A stretch of DNA of 64,000 bases from an uncultured Clostridia bacterium. Its GTDB lineage: Bacteria > Bacillota > Clostridia > TANB77 > CAG-508. Under the pieces are notes generated by a model, which had not been told where the DNA came from, did no database searches, and saw only the letters and a list, made by a program, of their open reading frames with translations. Location of the stretch: assembly GCA_944388805.1 (NCBI GenBank), contig CALXKE010000003.1:1-64000 (forward strand), in the 5' to 3' direction. Shown piece after piece: positions 2,837 to 64,000 of this stretch. Position 1 is the first letter of the stretch. Each line of letters starts with the position of its first letter. The position numbers were made by a program, and so were the translations under genes.

Positions 2837-2922
2837 GTGCTTTAAAGGTATTTATCTAAAAATAAAGTAAATTGCAATTAGATTTTTTTAGTCTCACATA
2901 TTTTTATATACACAACTTTAAT

Positions 2923-3066
2923 GGACAAATCTCGCTTCGCGAGAACTTTTCTCTACTTTTCTAATTTAACTATATATATTTAAGTTCTCGAAGAAGCGTA
3001 AAGATTTGTCGACGCGAAAAATTGCTATGCAATTTTTCTGTGCAACGTTGTTTTTTATTGAATAGG
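2923..3066. repeat. Family A structured intergenic repeat, copy 1
   Basis: This is one of three close copies (others at 23520-23690 and 33677-33864). It opens with GGACAAATCT, which pairs with AGATTTGTC about 85 bases later. Within that stem GAGAACTT pairs with AAGTTCTC. A short linker (GACGCG) leads to a hairpin of AAAAATTG and CAATTTTT arms, then TGTGCAACGTTG. In this copy the third, AT-rich hairpin has decayed. Together with the terminator at 3083-3116 it fills the gene-free stretch 2837-3143. No reading frame is shared among the copies. Confidence 0.8.
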
Positions 3067-6051: not shown

Positions 6052-6528
6052 TTAATTTTTGTTTGTTATATTTGTAAAATATCCTGGAGTTTCTACTGTA
6101 TCTATTCTTGCATATGTTCCATCTGTATACCCTGCATCATAGGTTGTACCATTTTCTCCTACTAATTTTGTACAGCCATTAAACATACTACCAGAATTTA
6201 TTACAGCTGATGTTGTCCAACCAGTTTTGGTTTCTTCATTATATTCACTTACATAAATTGTGGTTAGTCCACCACAACTATAAAACATATGTCCCATATC
6301 TTTTACACTACTTGTATTAAATCCACTTAAATCTAATGTAGTTAAATTATTACATCCATTAAACATAGAAGGCATATTAGTTACATTACTTGTATCAAAT
6401 CCGCTTACATCTAGTGTGCTTAATCCACTACAATTTCTAAACATATCACCCATACGAGTCACATTGCTTGTATCAAATTTGCTTACATCTAACATAGTTA
6501 AATTTACACAACCGTGAAAACATACCAC
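6052..6528 (-). CDS. C-terminal part of a BspA-like repeat protein (after a frameshift)
   Basis: This frame continues the 26-residue BspA-like repeats of 6473-8614. It holds three full repeat units and a degenerate fourth, then the typical end of the family (YARIDTVETPGYFT). Its apparent start is not preceded by a ribosome site. The repeat phase joins exactly to the upstream frame if one base is removed near 6514-6520, where a CGG interrupts the expected Ser-Gly-Cys or His-Gly-Cys codons. I read it as the detached end of one protein of about 850 residues. Sequencing error, strain-level inactivation and phase switching are all possible. Confidence 0.8.
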   Translation of the reverse strand: MVCFHGCVNLTMLDVSKFDTSNVTRMGDMFRNCSGLSTLDVSGFDTSNVTNMPSMFNGCNNLTTLDLSGFNTSSVKDMGHMFYSCGGLTTIYVSEYNEETKTGWTTSAVINSGSMFNGCTKLVGENGTTYDAGYTDGTYARIDTVETPGYFTNITNKN

Positions 6529-7770
6529 CCATGCCAGTCACATTACTTGTATCAAATCCACTTACATCTAGTGTGGTTAAACTATTACATCCAGTAAACA
6601 TACTACTCATACTAGTTACATTGCTTGTGTTCCATGAACTTACATCTAGAACTGTTAATCTATTACATCCAGCGAACATATTAGCCATAGTAGTTACATT
6701 TGTTGTATCAAATTCGCTTACTTTCAACATATTTAAACTATTACAATAATAAAACATATAACTCATATTAGTTACATTACTTGTATCAAATCCACTTACA
6801 TCCAGTGTGCTTAGTCCTCTACAGTCTACAAACATATTATTCATATAAATCACATTACTCGTATTAAATCCACTTACATCTAGTGTGCTTAGTCCACTAC
6901 AACTTTGAAACATACTACCCATAGTAGTCACATTACTTGTATCAAATCCGCCTACATCTAACACATTTAATCCACTACATCCTTGAAACATAGTACTCAT
7001 ATTAGTTACATTACTTGTATTAAACCCACTTACATCTAGTGTGCTTAATCCACTACAATTTTGAAACATAGCGTACATATCAATTACATTACTTGTATTA
7101 AATCCACTTACGTCTAGTGTACTTAGTCCATTACACCCCCTAAACATATACGCCATGTTAGTTACATTACTTGTACTAAATCCACTTACGTCTAGCATGC
7201 TTAGTTCTCTACAACCTTCAAACATATAACTCATATTATTTACATTACTTGTATTAAATCCACTTACATCTAGAACTGTTAAACTACTACAACTACCAAA
7301 CATAATAGCCATACTAGTCACGTTACTTGTATCAAATCTACTTACATCTAGTGTGCTTAATCCACTACATCCTTGAAACATAGCGTACATATTAGTCACA
7401 TTACTTGTATTAAATCCACTTACATCTAGTGTGCTTATTCCTCTACAATAGGTAAACATATTACTCATCTTGGTCACACTACTTGTATCAAATCTGCCTA
7501 CATCCAACATATTTAATCCACTACATTCTTGAAACATAGCACTCATATTAGTTACATTACTTGTATTAAACCCACTTACATCTAGTGTGCTTAATCCACT
7601 ACAATTTTGAAACATATTATCCATTAAAGTTACATTACTTGTATTAAATCCACTAACATCCAGTGTGCTTAGTCCACTACAACCGCTAAACATATAACCC
7701 ATACCAGTTACATTACTTGTATTAAATTTACTTACATCTAGAATATCTAAACTACTGCAACTATAAAACA
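6270..7770 (-). repeat. 78-bp tandem coding repeats of the BspA-like gene
   Basis: About 19 units of 78 bases (26 codons) run without spacers. Units share a core encoding LDVSGF, TSNVT and MF. Several neighbouring units differ at only a few bases, which points to recent duplication or gene conversion. Such an array can gain or lose units by slippage. Confidence 0.85.
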
Positions 7771-8614
7771 TAAACGCCATATTTGTTGTCCCTGCTGTAC
7801 TAAAATTATCAAATTCTATACTTGTTAAATTTGTTAATCCATAAAATAAATATTGCGAATTTAGATTTGTAAAAATCATTTCTTGACTTACAAATGTCAG
7901 TTCATATAAATTATTATTATCTATATCTGTATAATATCCTATAATACTTTCATCTTCTTTTTCTGAAGCATCAAATCTTGATATTATACCTTCATCTGGT
8001 TCTCTTCCTAATTTAAATGAAATTTTCTCTATTTGATTTTTGGTTTCTGCACTATTCATATATTTTCCTGTAGAATCTACACTTGTTGCCATTCTTAATC
8101 TATTTGGTTCTGAAAATTTAAAATTTATATATGATGTTAATGTATTATTTTCTGGTATTATTCCATCCTTATATTTAAATGTTATTATGATCTCTCGGCT
8201 CTCCTGTGGCCCTATTACTTGTCCTACTGTAAATCCACTGATTTCAAATTCTATGTTTGGATTATCATAAAATTCTTCATCATATAACACTCCTACAAAA
8301 GGTACACTTTCTTGGGCATTATTATATACCGTAACTTTGTATTGTATTTGTGTATTTGGATTTGTACTAGATAATTCTATTGTGCTATTCATGGTTGTTC
8401 CTATAAAATAATCTATTTGAGAAGTATTTATATTTGCATCTATATCACTTACATATTCAACATCTGTTATAAATACTCCACTTTGTACTTCTGCTACAAC
8501 TGTTCCTTTTATTTCTCCTGTAATTGAGTTTATTGATGCATATCCTATTCCTATAAACATTGTTGCTATTAATATCAAAAATAGAAATAAAATTCTTTTT
8601 CGACTTTGTTTCAT
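6473..8614 (-). CDS. BspA-like (DUF285) surface repeat protein, N-terminal part
   Basis: The protein begins with a SipW-type signal peptide (MFIGIGYASI). An N-terminal domain of about 220 residues follows, then 16 tandem 26-residue units built on LDVS, FNTSNVT and MF..C. These are the BspA/DUF285 leucine-rich-like repeats found on surface proteins of gut and oral bacteria, often linked to adhesion. The frame breaks at about 6514-6520 and ends after a short aberrant tail; the true C-terminus lies in 6052-6528. It heads the sipW locus, so its export probably depends on the neighbouring SipW. The divergent XRE gene may control it. Confidence 0.88.
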   Translation of the reverse strand: MKQSRKRILFLFLILIATMFIGIGYASINSITGEIKGTVVAEVQSGVFITDVEYVSDIDANINTSQIDYFIGTTMNSTIELSSTNPNTQIQYKVTVYNNAQESVPFVGVLYDEEFYDNPNIEFEISGFTVGQVIGPQESREIIITFKYKDGIIPENNTLTSYINFKFSEPNRLRMATSVDSTGKYMNSAETKNQIEKISFKLGREPDEGIISRFDASEKEDESIIGYYTDIDNNNLYELTFVSQEMIFTNLNSQYLFYGLTNLTSIEFDNFSTAGTTNMAFMFYSCSSLDILDVSKFNTSNVTGMGYMFSGCSGLSTLDVSGFNTSNVTLMDNMFQNCSGLSTLDVSGFNTSNVTNMSAMFQECSGLNMLDVGRFDTSSVTKMSNMFTYCRGISTLDVSGFNTSNVTNMYAMFQGCSGLSTLDVSRFDTSNVTSMAIMFGSCSSLTVLDVSGFNTSNVNNMSYMFEGCRELSMLDVSGFSTSNVTNMAYMFRGCNGLSTLDVSGFNTSNVIDMYAMFQNCSGLSTLDVSGFNTSNVTNMSTMFQGCSGLNVLDVGGFDTSNVTTMGSMFQSCSGLSTLDVSGFNTSNVIYMNNMFVDCRGLSTLDVSGFDTSNVTNMSYMFYYCNSLNMLKVSEFDTTNVTTMANMFAGCNRLTVLDVSSWNTSNVTSMSSMFTGCNSLTTLDVSGFDTSNVTGMGGMFSRLCKFNYVRCKQI

Positions 8615-23481: not shown

Positions 23482-23519
23482 TAGAACGCCTCCTTTTATT
23501 TTCTAAGTAAGCATTTAGT

Positions 23520-23690
23520 GGGACAAATCTCGCTTTGAGAGAACTTTTTTCTGTTTTTCTCATTTAACTATATAAATTAAGTTCTTGAAAAAGCGTAAAG
23601 ATTTGTCGACGTGAAAAATTGCAAGCAATTTTTCTGTGCAATATTATTTTTTATTATATAGAACATAAAATGTTCTATATAATAAAAAAT
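23520..23690. repeat. Family A structured intergenic repeat, copy 2
   Basis: It shares the order of parts with copies 1 and 3: GGGACAAATCT, a loop with ACTATATAAATTAAG, AGATTTGTCGACGTG, a hairpin (AAAAATTG and CAATTTTT arms), TGTGCAAT and an AT-rich third hairpin (ATTATATAGAACA with its complement). Stems differ from copy 1 by paired changes. It lies directly upstream of the permease-UPRT gene, with no evident promoter between them. Confidence 0.8.
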
Positions 23691-33560: not shown

Positions 33561-33676
33561 TATTTTTTCCTCCCCTTATCATATATATTTTACTACATTT
33601 GAATTATATCAAAAAAGATGGATTTTGTGAATATTTTATAAAAATCTTTTATGATAGCTTTTATATATTGCCTAAT

Positions 33677-33864
33677 GGGACAAATCTCGCTTCGCGAGAA
33701 CTTTTCTCTACTTTTCTAATTTAACTACATTTTAACTACATGTATTTAAGTTCTCGAAGAAGCGTAAAGATTTGTCGACGCGAAAAATTGCGTAGCAATT
33801 TTTCTGTGCAACGTTGTTTTTTTATTGAATAGGAAAAATCGATTTTTCCTATTCAATAAAAAAG
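33677..33864. repeat. Family A structured intergenic repeat, copy 3
   Basis: This is the most complete copy. GGGACAAATCT pairs with AGATTTGTC, GAGAACTT with AAGTTCTC, AAAAATTG with CAATTTTT, and the third hairpin (TTTATTGAATAGG and its complement) is intact. Relative to copy 1 the apical loop carries an internal duplication of TTTAACTACA. It starts 117 bases upstream of the Yip1-like gene and ends 50 bases from the truncated flavodoxin frame. With that hairpin it explains the gap 33561-33913. Confidence 0.82.
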
Positions 33865-44442: not shown

Positions 44443-44755
44443 TTTGAGGGAAATTGGGGACGGACTCATTTTTCCCTTTTTCAAGTTTGATTAAAACGAA
44501 AAATATAGAATATAAAAAAATGAAACGATTTTGCGTATCTAAATTTGAAATTAGAAATTCTAAAGAAAAGCATGAGGACTGCTCATTTTGCTTAAGATTT
44601 ATAGCAACAATGAGAGAGGCGCATGTTTTTCTTGTAGAAATTTCTATGAAAATTTAGCTTATACAAAATTGTGTAATGGCTTTATATTCTATATTTTTTT
44701 ATAGTTTCTCAATTTAAAAAAGGGAAAAATGAGTCCGTCCCCAATTTCCCTCAAA
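44443..44755. mobile_element. MITE-like element with 39-bp perfect terminal inverted repeats
   Basis: TTTGAGGGAAATTGGGGACG begins a 39-base arm at 44443-44481 that is matched exactly in reverse at 44717-44755. The 235-base centre is AT-rich and has no convincing gene (the only sizable frame, 67 codons, has no ribosome site). AAATTAATGT occurs as a direct repeat at 44419-44428 and 44753-44762 and may be a target duplication; the right copy contains the stop codon of the next gene. The GGGGACGGAC core resembles palindromes I know near REP-associated Y1 transposases. No transposase is present. Confidence 0.8.
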
Positions 44756-48918: not shown

Positions 48919-51015
48919 TTATTCCTCCTCTTTAATAATGTTCTTGCTACCAATATATGTTGCTAAGAAATATAAACCATAGATAACACCAATAATAACT
49001 GCTGTTGCTATTACAGAAGGTAATAAATCACTTGGAGAGGCTAATGCAGCAAGCATTGATAATATAAATTTAATTCCAAATATAGAATGTATAATCGCAA
49101 GAGCTAATGGTAACATGAAAAATATAAATATTTGTCTAAATAATGCTTGATTGATCATCTTTTCATCACAACCAATTTTTCTTAAAATTGTATATCTTTG
49201 TTTGTTATCAGAACTTTCTGTCAATTGTTTTAATGCTAAAATGGCAGAACTTGCAATTAAGAAGATAACTCCTAGATAAATGGCAATAAATATAATAATC
49301 GTTGCTAATCCTTTACTTGCTTCTATTAAACTAATTTTTGTCATGCCCTCTAGTTCTATACCTTTTTGTTCTAAGTTTTCCAAAAAGGTATTGTTATTTG
49401 TTTCTGATAATGTTTTTTCTATTTCTTCTTTTTCTTCATCAGTTTTAGCATTATAATTTGCTGCTAAAAATTCTTCTTCTTTCCATTCTTCTTTTAATTC
49501 AAAATTATCTGGAACTAATATAATTCCTGTATTTACATGACTTGCAGACATTTCAATAAATCCACTCTTACATTCATTATATTTAGCATGTAAAGTTTTT
49601 CCTTCAATTTGTACTGTTGAATTTTGTTTTAATGCTTGATTTCTTAATTCTGTCATATTATCAAAATCGCAAAGGACAATATATTCATCTTCGTTTAAGC
49701 TATATTGTTCTTGTCCATAAAGTTCTGCAATTTTATTATAATCAGATACTTTGATAATTTCTTCTGGTAAATCATACATAAGCATTGAAAATTGTGCTTT
49801 TGCTTGTTCATAATAAGTTCCTAAACTATATTTTAAAGTCCATTCTGGAATTGTATAAACTGAAATTTCTACTATATCTTTTAAATTATTCATATCATAA
49901 CCATTGGTTTCTAATGTGTAACTAACTGGTTGTTTTGAATCTTCAATTTGCTCTTCTGTAGGATATATCATCTGACCTGTATAAGAATCTTCATAACTTT
50001 GTGGTAAATTTGCTGTTTTATATAAATTGACATCTACTGGTGTCATTTCTTGCAATTCTGAATCCATTGTTGTTTGGATAGATAAACTACTAGATAAGAC
50101 ACTTATGGTCATAAATAGCATTAAGCAAATTACAGACATACTAATAACGGTTGTATTAATCTTATTATTCAATTGTCTTAATACAAACATATTGGTTCCT
50201 TTAAGATATATTTTTTTACTTGTTTGTATCATTCTTAGTATAAATCCTGATAAAGACCAAAATACGCCTATTGTTCCTACAATTCCCATTAAAATTGGTA
50301 CTAACATTTTTTCTTCTGTATTTAATTCATAGATGCCACCTGTAACTATATAATATGCATATCCTAATAATCCTGCTGAAATTAAGAATACAATAATAGA
50401 AATGATTGGATTTTTTATTTTTACCTTTTCATTTTTTCTAACAGCTGTTAATAAATTAATTAATTTGTATCTTGAAATAGTAAGTGTATTAAATATCATA
50501 ACTGCTAAATACATAACGGCAAAATAAATACATGTTTTAATACAAGCATCTTTTGAAAATACAAAGGTAAATTCACTCATATCTGCTTGAAAAAGTTTGG
50601 CTACTAGTATAGACATAAATTGTGAGCCAAATACACCTATAAAAATACCAACAATTAATGAAATGATTCCTACTAATATGGTTTCTATCAATATAATTTT
50701 GGATATTTGTCTTCTTCCCATTCCTAATGTCATATAAACACCAAATTCTCTTTTTCTTCTATTTACTAAGAAATTATTGGCATATACAATTAAAAATCCA
50801 AGTACAATGGCAATAAATACAGATACCATTCCTAACATACTAATCATGAGTTTTATCATATCTCTTGTAGATTCAGATACTTCTAACATAGCTTGTTGAC
50901 TATCTAAAGAGTTAAACATATAAAAGATTGCTACACCTAATACTAATGTTAAAAAATAAATGGCATAATCTTTAAAACTCTTTTTCATGTTTTTAACAGA
51001 TAATTTAAATAACAT
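48919..51015 (-). CDS. BceB/YxdM-like ABC transporter permease
   Basis: The 698-residue permease has ten membrane helices with FtsX-type ends and a large extracellular domain of about 220 residues between helices 7 and 8. That domain is the hallmark of BceAB-type detoxification modules that recognise lipid II-binding peptides such as bacitracin. The start overlaps the ATPase gene by 11 bases. It works with the ATPase and the two-component system further upstream. Its exact peptide ligand cannot be predicted. Confidence 0.92.
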   Translation of the reverse strand: MLFKLSVKNMKKSFKDYAIYFLTLVLGVAIFYMFNSLDSQQAMLEVSESTRDMIKLMISMLGMVSVFIAIVLGFLIVYANNFLVNRRKREFGVYMTLGMGRRQISKIILIETILVGIISLIVGIFIGVFGSQFMSILVAKLFQADMSEFTFVFSKDACIKTCIYFAVMYLAVMIFNTLTISRYKLINLLTAVRKNEKVKIKNPIISIIVFLISAGLLGYAYYIVTGGIYELNTEEKMLVPILMGIVGTIGVFWSLSGFILRMIQTSKKIYLKGTNMFVLRQLNNKINTTVISMSVICLMLFMTISVLSSSLSIQTTMDSELQEMTPVDVNLYKTANLPQSYEDSYTGQMIYPTEEQIEDSKQPVSYTLETNGYDMNNLKDIVEISVYTIPEWTLKYSLGTYYEQAKAQFSMLMYDLPEEIIKVSDYNKIAELYGQEQYSLNEDEYIVLCDFDNMTELRNQALKQNSTVQIEGKTLHAKYNECKSGFIEMSASHVNTGIILVPDNFELKEEWKEEEFLAANYNAKTDEEKEEIEKTLSETNNNTFLENLEQKGIELEGMTKISLIEASKGLATIIIFIAIYLGVIFLIASSAILALKQLTESSDNKQRYTILRKIGCDEKMINQALFRQIFIFFMLPLALAIIHSIFGIKFILSMLAALASPSDLLPSVIATAVIIGVIYGLYFLATYIGSKNIIKEEE

Positions 51016-51772
51016 CGTTCAAATCACCTCCAAGAAGTGTTTGTACTTCAATTATCTTTTCAAAGAATTGTTTTCTAGTATCTTCTCCTTTTACTAGTTC
51101 ATTAAAGATTTTTCCATCTTTAATGAAAATAATTCTATCTGCATAACTTGCTGTAAAGGCATCATGTGTAACCATTAAAATGGTTGCTCCTAGATTTTGA
51201 TTTAAATGTTCAAATGTTTCCAATAATTGTCTTGCGGATTTACTATCTAATGCACCTGTTGGTTCATCTGCCAAGACCATTTTAGGATTTGTAATAATGG
51301 CCCTTGCTGATGCTACTCTTTGTTTTTGTCCTCCTGATATTTGATATGGATATTTATTTAAAATATTTGAAATTTCTAATTTTTCCGCTACTTCTTTTAC
51401 TTTTTTATCAATTTCATGTGCATTTACTTTTTGAATAGTTAATGCCAAAGCTATATTTTCATAAGCAGTTAATGTATCTAATAAGTTAAAATCTTGAAAT
51501 ATAAATCCTAATTCCTCTCTTCTAAATTTGTTTAACTTATTTCCTTTTAGTTTGGTAATATCTTGATGATTGATGATAATGTTTCCTGCTGTTACTCTAT
51601 CAATTGTTGAAATACAATTTAAAAGTGTTGTTTTTCCTGATCCTGATGCGCCCATGATTCCAACAAATTCTCCTTCTTCTACATTAAAGCTAATTCCTGC
51701 AATGGCTTTTGTTAAATTTGATTTGTTTCCATAGTATTTTTCTATGTTTTTGACTTCTAATACATGACTCAT
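51005..51772 (-). CDS. BceA/YxdL-like ABC transporter ATPase
   Basis: The 255-residue ATPase has Walker A (GASGSGKTT), Q-loop, signature YQISGGQKQRVASARA, Walker B MVLADEPTGALD and H-loop MVTHD. It energises the adjacent BceB-like permease. The ribosome site AAGAAAGGAAT lies 8 bases upstream. A family B hairpin (51805-51925) lies immediately before that, so translation or transcript stability may be controlled there. Confidence 0.94.
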   Translation of the reverse strand: MSHVLEVKNIEKYYGNKSNLTKAIAGISFNVEEGEFVGIMGASGSGKTTLLNCISTIDRVTAGNIIINHQDITKLKGNKLNKFRREELGFIFQDFNLLDTLTAYENIALALTIQKVNAHEIDKKVKEVAEKLEISNILNKYPYQISGGQKQRVASARAIITNPKMVLADEPTGALDSKSARQLLETFEHLNQNLGATILMVTHDAFTASYADRIIFIKDGKIFNELVKGEDTRKQFFEKIIEVQTLLGGDLNDVI

Positions 51773-51804
51773 TTAATTTCATTCCTTTCTTTAGGCACAA
51801 ATTA

Positions 51805-51925
51805 CTTGGAAAAGAATTGTGCTTTTGGCTAGGCAGACAAGTCCAAAATCAATGAGGCGTGCTTTTGCACGTTGATTTGATTTTGGATGAAGTCTAACAA
51901 CGCCAAAACGCAATTATTTTTCAAG
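51805..51925 (-). repeat. Family B RBS-proximal hairpin element, copy 1
   Basis: The element is an almost closed hairpin of 121 nt. Outer stem: CTTGGAAAAGAATTG with CAATTATTTTTCAAG. Then TTTTGGC with GCCAAAA, inner TCCAAAATCA with TGATTTTGGA, tip CGTGC with GCACG. Internal loops on the plus strand are TAGGCAGACAAG and TGAAGTCTAACAAC. It ends 14 bases from the AAGAAAGGAAT ribosome site of the ABC ATPase. The second copy at 63236 keeps the loops and changes the stems in step. Confidence 0.85.
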
Positions 51926-52031
51926 CTTGTAAACCTCCATTTATCTTTTATTCTATATTTATTATACGGCTTATTCTTTTTTCTTTCCATTGTTTAATCT
52001 TACATTTATCTTACATTTTTGTAAGGTAATT

Positions 52032-59596: not shown

Positions 59597-60541
59597 TTAA
59601 TCATTCATTTCTTTTTCTCCATTATACTCATTTACCAAATATAATGGTCTATCTTTACTTTCATTAAATATTCTTCCTAAATATTCTCCTATAATTCCAA
59701 ATAATAATATTTGTACGCCAGAGAAAAATAGAATCAATAATATAATTGCTTGATATGCTTGGATCATTGTACTTGTTATAATACATTTTGCAATTACATA
59801 TACAAAATATACAAATAAAATAATAAATGTTGGTATACTAATATATGTTGATATTCTAAGTGGTGATGTCGTAAATGATGTAATTCCATCTATTGCTAAA
59901 TCTATTAGCTTTTTATAATTCCATTTTGTTTGCCCTGCAATTCTTGGGTCTCTATCATATAGTACTTCTTTTTTCTTGTATCCTATCCAACTAAACATAC
60001 TTTTTGAATTTCTTTGAGATTCTCTCATTTTTCTCAAGGCATTCACACATCTTCTGTCTAATAATCTAAAATCTCCTGTGTCTTGTTGAATTGGTACATT
60101 TGTTAAATGTTGCAAAACTCTATAATACATTTTTGATGTAAATTTCTTTAGCCAAGTTTCTCCTTTTCTTGAACTTCTTTTGGCATAAACGTCATCATAT
60201 CCTTCTTCCCAGTATTTTACCAATTCAGGAATCAATTCTGGTGGATCTTGTAAATCGGCATCCATAAAAATAACACAATCTCCTGTTGCATAATCTAATC
60301 CTGCAATCATAGCAATTTCTTTTCCAAAGTTTCTAGAAAAATCAACATAGCATATTCTATTATCTTTTTCTCTATATTCTTTTATTAAATTAATGGTATT
60401 ATCTTTACTTCCATCATTTACAAATAAAATTTCAAATTCATAATGCTCCATAGAACTCATTAATTTTTCTAATCTTTCATATAAATGTGGTAATGATTCT
60501 TCTTCATTATATGCTGGTATAATTATGGTTATTTTTTTCAT
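59597..60541 (-). CDS. GtrB-like family 2 glycosyltransferase
   Basis: The 314-residue protein has a GT2 domain (IIIPAYNEEESLPHLY, VNDGSKDNT, DADLQDPPE) and two C-terminal membrane helices. It matches the DPM1/GtrB class that charges undecaprenyl phosphate with a sugar. A GtrA-like flippase gene lies 70 bases upstream, the usual pairing. GAAAGGAAT lies upstream of the ATG, following a collapsed family B element. Confidence 0.92.
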   Translation of the reverse strand: MKKITIIIPAYNEEESLPHLYERLEKLMSSMEHYEFEILFVNDGSKDNTINLIKEYREKDNRICYVDFSRNFGKEIAMIAGLDYATGDCVIFMDADLQDPPELIPELVKYWEEGYDDVYAKRSSRKGETWLKKFTSKMYYRVLQHLTNVPIQQDTGDFRLLDRRCVNALRKMRESQRNSKSMFSWIGYKKKEVLYDRDPRIAGQTKWNYKKLIDLAIDGITSFTTSPLRISTYISIPTFIILFVYFVYVIAKCIITSTMIQAYQAIILLILFFSGVQILLFGIIGEYLGRIFNESKDRPLYLVNEYNGEKEMND

Positions 60542-60573
60542 TTTATTCTCATTCCTTTCTTAAGGTCAAAATT

Positions 60574-60599
60574 GGTTAAAAAAGAATTATTTCTCAACC
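60574..60599 (-). repeat. Collapsed family B element
   Basis: GGTTAAAAAAGAATT joins directly to ATTTCTCAACC, the two outer arms of family B, with all inner parts missing. The joint is at AATT, which occurs in both arms of full copies, so a deletion between those short repeats explains it. The flank CTTTCTTAAGGT toward the ribosome site is kept. Confidence 0.65.
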
Positions 60600-60610
60600 C
60601 TTTCACTTTT

Positions 60611-62093: not shown

Positions 62094-63200
62094 TTATTCT
62101 TCCTTTAATAATTTTTCTAATTTTTTGATGATATGCTGATTATCATAAGTTTGTTTCTTCTCATCAAAAGTTTTTATATTATTTTCAATGATATATTTTA
62201 ATTTATTATAAATTTCATGTTCATCGTTTTCTACAATCACTGTATTTCTATAATTTTCAACAGCTTCTCTTGCTGCTGTATTGGTAATAATAATTGGCTT
62301 ATTCAAAATTTTTGCTTCTTCTAGCACCATACCATATCCTTCAAATTTAGAAAGTAAGCAAAAAATATCTGCTTGTTTCATATATGGATATGGATTTTCT
62401 TTGGCACCTAATAAGAAAAATGTTTCTTGTAAATGTTCGTCTTTTATTAATTTTTCCAATTTTTCTTTTTCTGGTCCATCACCAATAATATAAAATTTAT
62501 TCATATAATGATTTGCAATTAATTCTCTATGAATACGAATTAATCTATCAATTCCTTTTTGTTCTACTAATCTTGCTACTGTCAAGAAATTGATTTGGTG
62601 ATTATCAAAAGAAAAGTCTATTTTTTCTTCTGCTTTTTCTATTACTTTCTGTGCATTTATATAATTATAGATAACCTCTTCTGTTGGTTTCATATTCGGA
62701 TATCGTATGTCAAACACTTCTTGATTATCTTTACTAACAAATATCAGTTTTTGATATTTGTTATAAATCCTTCTATCTATGAGTAATTTTAGTTTTGCTT
62801 TTAATCCATTTCCATATACTTTTGAAATATCATTATGAATCCAAGCTATTTTCTTTGTATTTTTATTTTTTGTGCTAAATAGCCTTGTAATTGGTCCTTC
62901 TAAGAAAGCGATTTCTATATCATAATTACCTTGAATATATTTTTTATAATATTGTTTTTGGAAGCATAAAATCTTTAATGGTATTTTTATTTTTTCAAAC
63001 TGACTAAATCTCTTGTATGGTTTGTCAAATATTCTTTTTACTTTTATCTTATCATTTAAACTTTTTTCTAACTCACCTTTTCCATAAATCGTAAATATCG
63101 TAATGTCAAATGTATCACATAAACGATTTGCCATATCAACCAATACTCTCTCTGCTCCGCCTAACGTTAAACTCGTTATTCCCAATATTATCTTTTTCAT
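62094..63200 (-). CDS. Family 4 glycosyltransferase
   Basis: The 368-residue protein has a GT-B fold of the GT4 type: SLTLGGAERVLVDMANRL at the acceptor side, LTVARLVEQKGIDRLI and the nucleotide-sugar motif FCLLSKFEGYGMVLEEAKILN with the two conserved Glu residues. It transfers a sugar in surface polymer synthesis. AAGAAAGGAAT lies before the ATG, just after a family B element. Confidence 0.92.
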   Translation of the reverse strand: MKKIILGITSLTLGGAERVLVDMANRLCDTFDITIFTIYGKGELEKSLNDKIKVKRIFDKPYKRFSQFEKIKIPLKILCFQKQYYKKYIQGNYDIEIAFLEGPITRLFSTKNKNTKKIAWIHNDISKVYGNGLKAKLKLLIDRRIYNKYQKLIFVSKDNQEVFDIRYPNMKPTEEVIYNYINAQKVIEKAEEKIDFSFDNHQINFLTVARLVEQKGIDRLIRIHRELIANHYMNKFYIIGDGPEKEKLEKLIKDEHLQETFFLLGAKENPYPYMKQADIFCLLSKFEGYGMVLEEAKILNKPIIITNTAAREAVENYRNTVIVENDEHEIYNKLKYIIENNIKTFDEKKQTYDNQHIIKKLEKLLKEE

Positions 63201-63235
63201 ATTTTCATGTATTCCTTTCTTAATGCTTCAAACAT

Positions 63236-63360
63236 GGTTAGGAAAGAATTAAATTTTGGCTAGGAAAACAAGTTTGAAATTTATGAGACGTACTTATTTG
63301 TACGTTGATTAAATTTCAAATGAAGTTTGACAACGCCAAAATTCTAATTATTTTCTAACC
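63236..63360 (-). repeat. Family B RBS-proximal hairpin element, copy 2
   Basis: Outer GGTTAGGAAAGAATT pairs with AATTATTTTCTAACC, AATTTTGGC with GCCAAAATT, inner TTTGAAATTT with AAATTTCAAA, tip ACGTAC with GTACGT. Plus-strand internal loops are TAGGAAAACAAG and TGAAGTTTGACAAC, nearly those of copy 1. It begins at the stop codon of the upstream gene and ends 17 bases before the AAGAAAGGAAT ribosome site, so it fills the whole gap. Confidence 0.85.
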
Positions 63361-64000
63361 TAAACAAATTTTTCTTGTAACTTATCTCTTATAAATTTAA
63401 TTCTCGCTAAACTTGTATAAATTTTTAATGTAATTGTATTTACAGATCTCATATATAAATTCTTTAACCCTTTTTCCTTTAAATAGGTATTTTCCTTCCA
63501 ATTTGTAAATTGTGTATTCAACGATTTCCATGCCATATGAATCATTTCTTTTCTTTCTTTTTTATTTTCAATCATTACCATTCTAAGCATAGAACTACAT
63601 AAAATATATCTTGCATAAGTGTATTCTATTTCTTCTTTGTATTCTTCAAACAAATTATTTGCTTTGTAATATTCAATAACATGTCCTAAAACATCAATAA
63701 TTTCTTTTGTTCTTGTATTTTGTACATTTGAGATAGAGTCTTCTCTTTGTACATAATGAATGAATGGTTTTTGAACAATTCCATAATCATGTATCAATGG
63801 CAATAGTTTATAGAAAAACTCTACATCTTCATATCGATATCCTTTGGGAAATTCTAAATGGTTATCTTGTACAATTTCTCTTTTAATTAGTTTATTCCAT
63901 GCAACAACTCTTGTATGGATAAACATTTCTTTTTTATTACTATATTGTTTTCCTTTGCTTTCTAATGTCTTATCTGGATATTCCCATAGAAAATTACATT
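63360..64000 (-). CDS. C-terminal part of a glycosyltransferase, cut by the window edge
   Basis: The frame is open to the right end of the window; residues before the first internal Met read LWEYPDKTLESKGKQYSN. The visible part has WNKLIKREIV, the RYEDVEFFYKLLP and HYVQREDSIS motifs of family 2 glycosyltransferases (CgeB/WcaA-like second half). The catalytic first half lies outside. It is the first visible member of the surface-sugar cluster. Confidence 0.8.
   Translation of the reverse strand, partial: CNFLWEYPDKTLESKGKQYSNKKEMFIHTRVVAWNKLIKREIVQDNHLEFPKGYRYEDVEFFYKLLPLIHDYGIVQKPFIHYVQREDSISNVQNTRTKEIIDVLGHVIEYYKANNLFEEYKEEIEYTYARYILCSSMLRMVMIENKKERKEMIHMAWKSLNTQFTNWKENTYLKEKGLKNLYMRSVNTITLKIYTSLARIKFIRDKLQEKFV

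Follow-up and report, generated by a model that had tools for sequence, protein, structure and literature searches.

Two long hairpins lie on the minus strand of the window, the whole 64,000-nucleotide stretch of an uncultured Clostridia bacterium that was analysed, one ahead of an ABC transporter ATPase gene and the other ahead of a group 1 glycosyltransferase gene (Table 1). An earlier note, made from the sequence alone, had placed them there and had quoted shared internal loop strings and a stem exchange between them; both hairpins were recovered by sequence and by covariance model, and the strings and the exchange were both found in the sequence. Throughout, the sense strand of the element is the strand of the downstream gene. 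Copies 1 and 2 fold as a single long hairpin on both strands (z of -6.8 to -8.5 versus shuffles), and copy 2 begins at the stop codon of an upstream ORF (63360-63926 in the ORF list). In a third, relic copy the outer stem ends are joined (GGTTGAGAAATAATTCTTTTTTAACC) and the hairpin core is gone, with the Shine-Dalgarno (SD) tail retained and a further SD-like GAAAGG at the left edge.

Table 1 Hairpin copies, their parts and the genes behind them in the window
Feature	Position	Strand	Evidence
Copy 1 hairpin	51803..51927	-	model match 128.1 bits; folds; site empty in G040 and G060, filled in G049
Copy 1 3-prime tail with its own SD (AAGAAAGGAATGA)	51773..51802	-	missing at empty sites; tail motif found behind other copies
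Native GGAGG site (SD) of the ABC ATPase gene, displaced to the upstream side of the element	51934..51938	-	in G040 and G060 this GGAGG immediately precedes the start codon
Promoter-like site TGGAAA-17-TATAAT upstream of the insertion	51961..51989	-	consensus match only
ABC transporter ATPase gene behind copy 1	51005..51772	-	PF00005, E 4.6e-35
Copy 2 hairpin	63235..63361	-	model match 116.7 bits
Copy 2 SD-bearing region (TTAAGAAAGGAATACATGAAAAT), like a diverged tail	63201..63234	-	sequence likeness only
Group 1 glycosyltransferase gene behind copy 2	62094..63200	-	PF00534, E 1.9e-26
Relic copy, third in the window	about 60542..60600	-	repeat D13 and sequence, not model score
Family 2 glycosyltransferase gene behind the relic	59597..60541	-	PF00535, E 8e-40

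The promoter-like site upstream of copy 1 has closely similar letters in the related genomes G049, G040 and G060. Such sites are not above chance by count, with two in the copy 1 region versus 3.1 expected in shuffles. If the site were active, the element would fall in a transcribed leader, transcription in this case being predicted from the letters.

Other repeats occur in the window. A 45-nt inverted repeat with GGGGACGG (44443-44487 and 44711-44755) is perhaps another hairpin repeat family. A further family (GGACAAATCTCGCTTCGCGAGAACTTTTCTC...) has three copies (2904-3056, 23502-23653 and 33659-33822), and a piece like it stands upstream of the ABC gene in G049. Repeat D1 (6205-7909) comprises 17 in-register copies, mostly at 78 nt spacing, inside minus-strand ORFs.

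Covarying stems and conserved loops

Five more copies from the window genome, found with a short pattern, were added to give a seven-copy alignment with both-sided changes in 19 of 44 predicted pairs, and covariance model R1 was built from it. The element is one long hairpin of about 125 nt whose interruptions are conserved and whose outer, inner and tip stems vary. Read on the sense strand, the common letters run in the order GCGTTGTTAAACTTCAT, AATCAACGTAC, tip loop, GTACGCCTCAT and ACTTGTTTGCCTAGC, and at least three tip types were distinguished by eye from the alignment.

In alignment A5 (76 distinct rows from 84 loci, one row being antisense), which was fitted to the model and therefore leans toward structure, pairing held in 95.5% of 3248 pair cells across the 76 distinct copies versus 74.8% in shuffles, and fell to 31-47% when partners were slid; compensatory (double) changes numbered 606 cells versus 148 in shuffles, and the covariation score was 0.535 versus 0.155 in shuffles (0 of 500 reached 0.535) and 0.04-0.10 in slid structures. 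The covariation that the earlier note had described between two copies extends to the family, with 38 of 43 pairs changed on both sides, and conserved loops with changing stems are likewise general in the model-fitted alignment. Covariation is no less free in the outermost stem than in the others (terminal column pair 3-197: UA 41, GC 18, AU 12, CG 5), so the element has no fixed terminal sequence.

Stem cells are almost all Watson-Crick. After removal of exact repeats (73 of 78 A6 rows were new) and with six mostly unpaired column pairs omitted, 5483 cells were Watson-Crick versus 117 G.T and 68 A.C, the excess of G.T over A.C being on the sense strand of the variable stems, where cells are not independent. 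The antisense strand was the better fold in 74 of 75 distinct elements, by a mean of 11.6 kcal.

A stem-loop of about 50 nt (GCTAAAGCTTACT...AACAGCC...AGC) is nested in the element stem at L063:1501-1675 (G000:C1:51683-51857) and L295:3193-3366. The orthologous L061 has the element without this stem-loop, and a similar piece was seen by eye in L088.

Distribution among genomes and placement before genes

The covariance-model search that the earlier note had proposed as a check found matches at E 0.1 or better in 24 of 36 related genomes, and many matches in one genome were common. In 21 of these the match was 1e-11 or better, the three weak ones being G003, G015 and G031. The positive genomes include 18 of the 23 in the genus (the window's own among them) and 6 of the 13 from other families of the order. 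Scoring was limited to the 98 best first-look candidates of each genome, which makes the copy numbers lower bounds, and raw match numbers include antisense echoes of strong copies. The window genome had 11 matches of at least 60 bits. With stricter filters, a class-wide sample that doubles as a negative control gave matches in 3 of 148 genomes (the window's own, one of the genus and one of the order), which suggests that the element probably does not extend beyond one order. When named genomes were scanned with a pattern, at least 118 stretches were returned. Among the 118 listed, 103 were titled Clostridia, Clostridium, Clostridiaceae, Clostridiales or Eubacteriales, and the 15 with other titles gave no model match at the limits used and thus look like chance. 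Several record titles of matching stretches name animal guts.

A phage or plasmid origin was considered and rejected, as copy 1 had no match among plasmids and phages, and viral contigs were empty for one exact pattern that is blind to diverged copies. Membership of a known RNA family was also rejected. Against 4227 Rfam families the window had no match at gathering score, and the matches below threshold at both copies were to eukaryotic miRNA and snoRNA families and one Plasmodium RNA. The published literature searched contained no account of such an element. PMC8040213, in excerpt, reports thousands of candidate RNAs from human microbiomes, and the hairpin may stand in its supplements as an unnamed candidate.

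Placement was scored in 138 of 146 copies that were distinct with their flanks, leaving out 8 near contig ends. Named-record loci partly duplicate the related genomes, and exact repeats were dropped before the frame and placement counts. A same-strand start with an SD lay within 150 nt downstream in 104 of 138 copies (nearest SD-backed start; median 34 nt, quartiles 30 and 49), an opposite-strand start lay upstream in 7 (3 have both orientations), and 30 had neither; choosing the start by best SD instead of nearest gave 104, 6 and 30. The start was within 60 nt in 86 copies and at 27-38 nt in 54 of the 104. Placement ahead of start codons, which the earlier note had described for two copies, is therefore general. 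Selection for function is another possible source of the same-strand bias. Just 3 of 10 scored copies had a same-strand start with an SD nearby in G027, which belongs to another family.

No copy was spanned by a long ORF (0 of 138), and in 102 of 138 an open frame of at least 80 codons ended within 80 nt upstream or inside the element. Copies positioned in this manner, as inside transcription units, would suit a domesticated hairpin that processes or stabilizes mRNA, by analogy with ERIC and Correia repeats, for which RNase effects are published (PMC10969869, in excerpt). The existence of core-less relics weighs against such a role, as does the expectation that its effects would vary by site, and we consider it improbable.

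An SD of -8 kcal or better was found in the left 24 nt of 28 of 144 copies and in 10, 10 and 1 in the next three intervals, with 6.2% in shuffles. Behind the hairpin, TTTGTGCCTTAAGAAAGGAATGA or close forms followed in 22 of 144 copies from several genomes, L042 and L107 being odd. This tail of about 30 nt with an SD is present in at least one subfamily. Eight of the 24 listed genes behind tailed copies were scanned by Pfam and were of eight different kinds: formyltransferase, GMP synthase, protein kinase, carbamoyltransferase, AAA/DUF4143, PTS, queuosine synthesis and triosephosphate isomerase. With a looser tail motif, and among copies with a start within 60 nt, a left-edge SD of -6 kcal or better occurred in 16 of 24 tailed and 21 of 62 untailed copies (19.4% in shuffles), and one of -4.5 kcal or better in 20 of 24 and 26 of 62.

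Orthologous sites and changes in the stems

At the ABC ATPase gene behind copy 1, G040 and G060 are without the insert and read GGAGG(T/G)TTATATATG. The empty leader in both is ...AAATGGAGG(T/G)TTATATATGAGTCATG, and the filled leader in the window genome and G049 is ...AAATGGAGGTTTACA(hairpin)...AATTTGT(G/A)CCTAAAGAAAGGAATGAAATTAAATGAGTCATG. In the latter two genomes the insert sits between the native SD and the ATG, and the tail holds a new SD. The earlier note had assigned both copies to positions before the ribosome sites of the two genes. An SD and start indeed follow the modelled ends by 30 and 34 nt, but at copy 1 the AAGAAAGGAAT site arrived as part of the insert and belongs to the repeat, because empty relatives lack it. 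In G047 the ends and tail are retained and the core is lost, with a junction of the same kind as that of the window relic, and no element was seen by eye in the more diverged G058, G001, G018, G010 and G061. At an ABC paralogue (L188), the filled leader AAAGGAGA(insert)...AAAAGGAGGAAATAAAAATG corresponds to AAAGGAGAGATGAAAGATG in G049; again, the insert displaced the native SD and supplied a new one.

The gene for rsmD (PF03602) was inspected by eye at 30 loci. It was filled in G000 and G049, carried a core-deleted relic in G051, and showed no element in 27, one of them with a leader of only 73 nt. The insert comes after AAAGGTTTA, between SD and ATG, and in G000 (L055) no SD-backed start was found behind the copy, so that the insert brought no detectable SD. 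The best rsmD matches in G002, G037 and G062 have in-frame TAG and TAA codons, for which broken genes, assembly errors or a recoded stop are possible. For a pseudouridine synthase gene (PF00849), 14 of 24 loci were anchored. Three were filled (G000, G007 and G020), at least four were relic-like (G047, G049, G058 and G060), and the rest had no full element by eye; here the insert is close to the stop codon on its upstream side and precedes an SD. A GGGGACG-type inverted repeat was present in one pseudouridine synthase leader (L177). At another gene (L031, second copy), the inserts of G000 and G047 seem to be separate ones in the same leader, which is empty elsewhere. No target-site duplication is clear by eye; TA at both edges is possible at rsmD, and none is visible at the G047 insertion. 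Taken as sequence comparisons, these sites show insertion between SD and ATG at three and a new SD at two, and they show neither for all copies.

In a leader-peptide reading, translation would begin from the native SD at a TTG in the hairpin and continue in frame into the gene. One subfamily has an open sense frame, for example in several G020 copies, and a stop-free sense frame occurs in 42 of 143 distinct copies versus 18 of 143 for antisense. However, all three sense frames contain stops in 101 of 143, window copies 1 and 2 included. The leader-peptide reading was rejected as a general one, and we think it highly improbable.

Stem changes were compared in same-site pairs defined by flank similarity, of which 55 of 63 were kept after dropping 8 with L218 or L245 (repeats of L033 and L057); individual sequences recur in several pairs, which are not independent. 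Where element identity was at least 0.90 (37 pairs), 58 changes were one-sided (pairing was absent from at least one copy in 39, and 19 were by wobble), 8 double-kept and 1 double-lost. The corresponding counts were 27 one-sided, 43 double-kept and 9 double-lost in 10 pairs at 0.80-0.90, and 10, 84 and 5 in 8 pairs below 0.80, which indicates that recent changes are mostly uncompensated and older differences mostly compensated. One site with six orthologues gave 52 one-sided changes (pairwise cells) and no double change, and a seventh orthologue, L265, differs from five of the six also by 3-4 double-kept changes. A single insertion is common to seven records of different named Clostridia genomes (L181, L184, L195, L211, L248, L252 and L265), and is a good site for studying stem change.

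Covariation might also be mutational in origin, if template switching between the long inverted-repeat arms, or conversion between copies, rewrote one arm from the other. Template switching of this kind is a published mechanism (PMC8794818, in excerpt). It agrees with the nearly complete Watson-Crick pairing and with sites that have double-kept changes only, namely L056 with L227, L192 and L256 (7 each, no one-sided change) and L061 with L295 (4, no one-sided, flanks 92-96% identical), the last being the pattern that a rewriting event would leave. The internal loops, conserved and unpaired across subfamilies, do not agree with it, and because recent changes are mostly uncompensated (58 one-sided versus 8 double-kept), such correction is not fast. 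We regard it as possible but rather unlikely. The overall pattern fits constraint on active elements combined with copy turnover at hot sites, and at the L033 site a newer copy stands, by eye, beside letters like the left end of an older one. It also fits slow compensation in place or template switching. In the earlier note's phrase, this was a "selected structure"; the covariation is real, but one-sided recent and compensated older changes do not separate selection in place from replacement or template switching.

A candidate mobile hairpin and known repeats

The earlier note had suggested, as a possibility, a 5-prime regulatory RNA or a translational control module. In a dedicated cis-regulatory RNA, riboswitch-like or of that kind, the hairpin would sense something or bind a protein and control the adjacent start. 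The genes scanned behind the copies argue otherwise, belonging to different families without a common functional class, and the element varies in presence at orthologous genes, including close relatives that lack it; a riboswitch would be expected to accompany one functional class of genes and to persist at orthologues. Relics without a core keep the SD tail, recent changes are seldom compensated, and Rfam gave no match. The covariation around conserved internal loops, the same-strand placement (104 versus 7 of 138), the compensated differences at older same-site pairs and the promoter-like site upstream of copy 1 are in keeping with regulation. We consider a cis-regulatory RNA quite unlikely. 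A dedicated regulatory RNA is the less likely account, and the hairpins look more like copies of an element that travels, and that may affect expression, than like a switch dedicated to a gene.

The element is probably a MITE-like mobile hairpin, non-autonomous and restricted to its lineage, with gene leaders as its insertion sites. It would enter a leader with its 3-prime end mostly facing the gene and, as at the three compared sites, could land between native SD and start codon. At copy 1 and L188, the native SD lies upstream of the insert and the new SD stands before the gene, which would then start from it. The hairpin may be needed for the spread of the element itself and may be recognised as a folded single strand by some enzyme, because the terminal stems covary too and no terminal sequence is fixed. 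Copies would later shed the hairpin core and could leave the SD tail, and regulation of the downstream gene would be a side effect at most. A bolder proposal is that the element represents a new mobile class, which moves as folded RNA or single-stranded DNA, is recognised by shape, targets the spacer between SD and start and replaces the native ribosome-binding site with its own, spreading while the host gene stays translatable and rewiring initiation gene by gene. We put this forward as tentative and, in its entirety, unlikely.

Like a MITE, the element is short, non-coding, multi-copy and present or absent at orthologous sites; its termini are inverted repeats, but they covary freely and are not a conserved terminal inverted repeat matching an autonomous transposon. 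A search for a transposase or autonomous partner that covered Y1 transposases (PF01797) found none. Y1 genes are present in 30 of 36 genomes with no relation to element copy number by eye (G006 has no Y1 and 15 element matches, G005 four Y1 and no element), and Y1 was rejected as mobiliser since its counts do not follow copy number. In G027, about 230 nt separate one Y1 match from a copy of the element, but three other Y1 loci (L308, L309 and L311) have no copy. Integron attC sites and REP or IS200-type hairpins are DNA recognised by folded shape. They share with the element this idea only, no enzyme being linked to the element, and the attC box order presumably does not fit it, as judged by eye.

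Several known repeats resemble the element in part, as compared here with excerpts of their descriptions. ERIC repeats are intergenic 127-bp units (PMC2759123), multi-copy, with transcripts that contain long stem-loops (PMC10969869, PMC2229807), and so resemble, by description only, a multi-copy intergenic hairpin on the scale of 125 nt. Unlike ERIC as described, the element has covarying terminal stems, a bias to gene starts and a tail able to bring an SD; ERIC occurs in enterobacteria and vibrios, whereas the element was found in one order and in Clostridia-titled records. Correia elements (NEMIS) are also small, stand mostly immediately upstream of genes and supply expression signals. In their case, these are promoters (PMC10969869), accompanied by a 24-bp terminal inverted repeat (PMC2229807), whereas the element brings an SD and has no fixed-sequence terminal repeat. 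Pneumococcal BOX, RUP and SPRITE, which are likewise small and interspersed and have been interpreted as mobile and parasitic repeats (PMC3049150), are over-represented between convergent genes, whereas the element lies just before same-strand starts. Rickettsia palindromic elements, repeats of about 150 bp that tolerate unusual sites (PMC10969869), insert in frame within genes, in contrast to the element, which no long ORF spans.

Some known intergenic repeats bring in promoters or RNase sites. If the mobile reading is true, insertion between SD and start with a ribosome site of its own would give a parasite a new, non-lethal route into essential genes, and the element would be a natural source of variation in translation rate. 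The family also gives a caution, in that conserved loops and covarying stems before ribosome sites need not indicate a riboswitch. Its many filled, empty and decayed orthologous sites allow the origin of covariation to be tested among selection in place, copy turnover and template switching.
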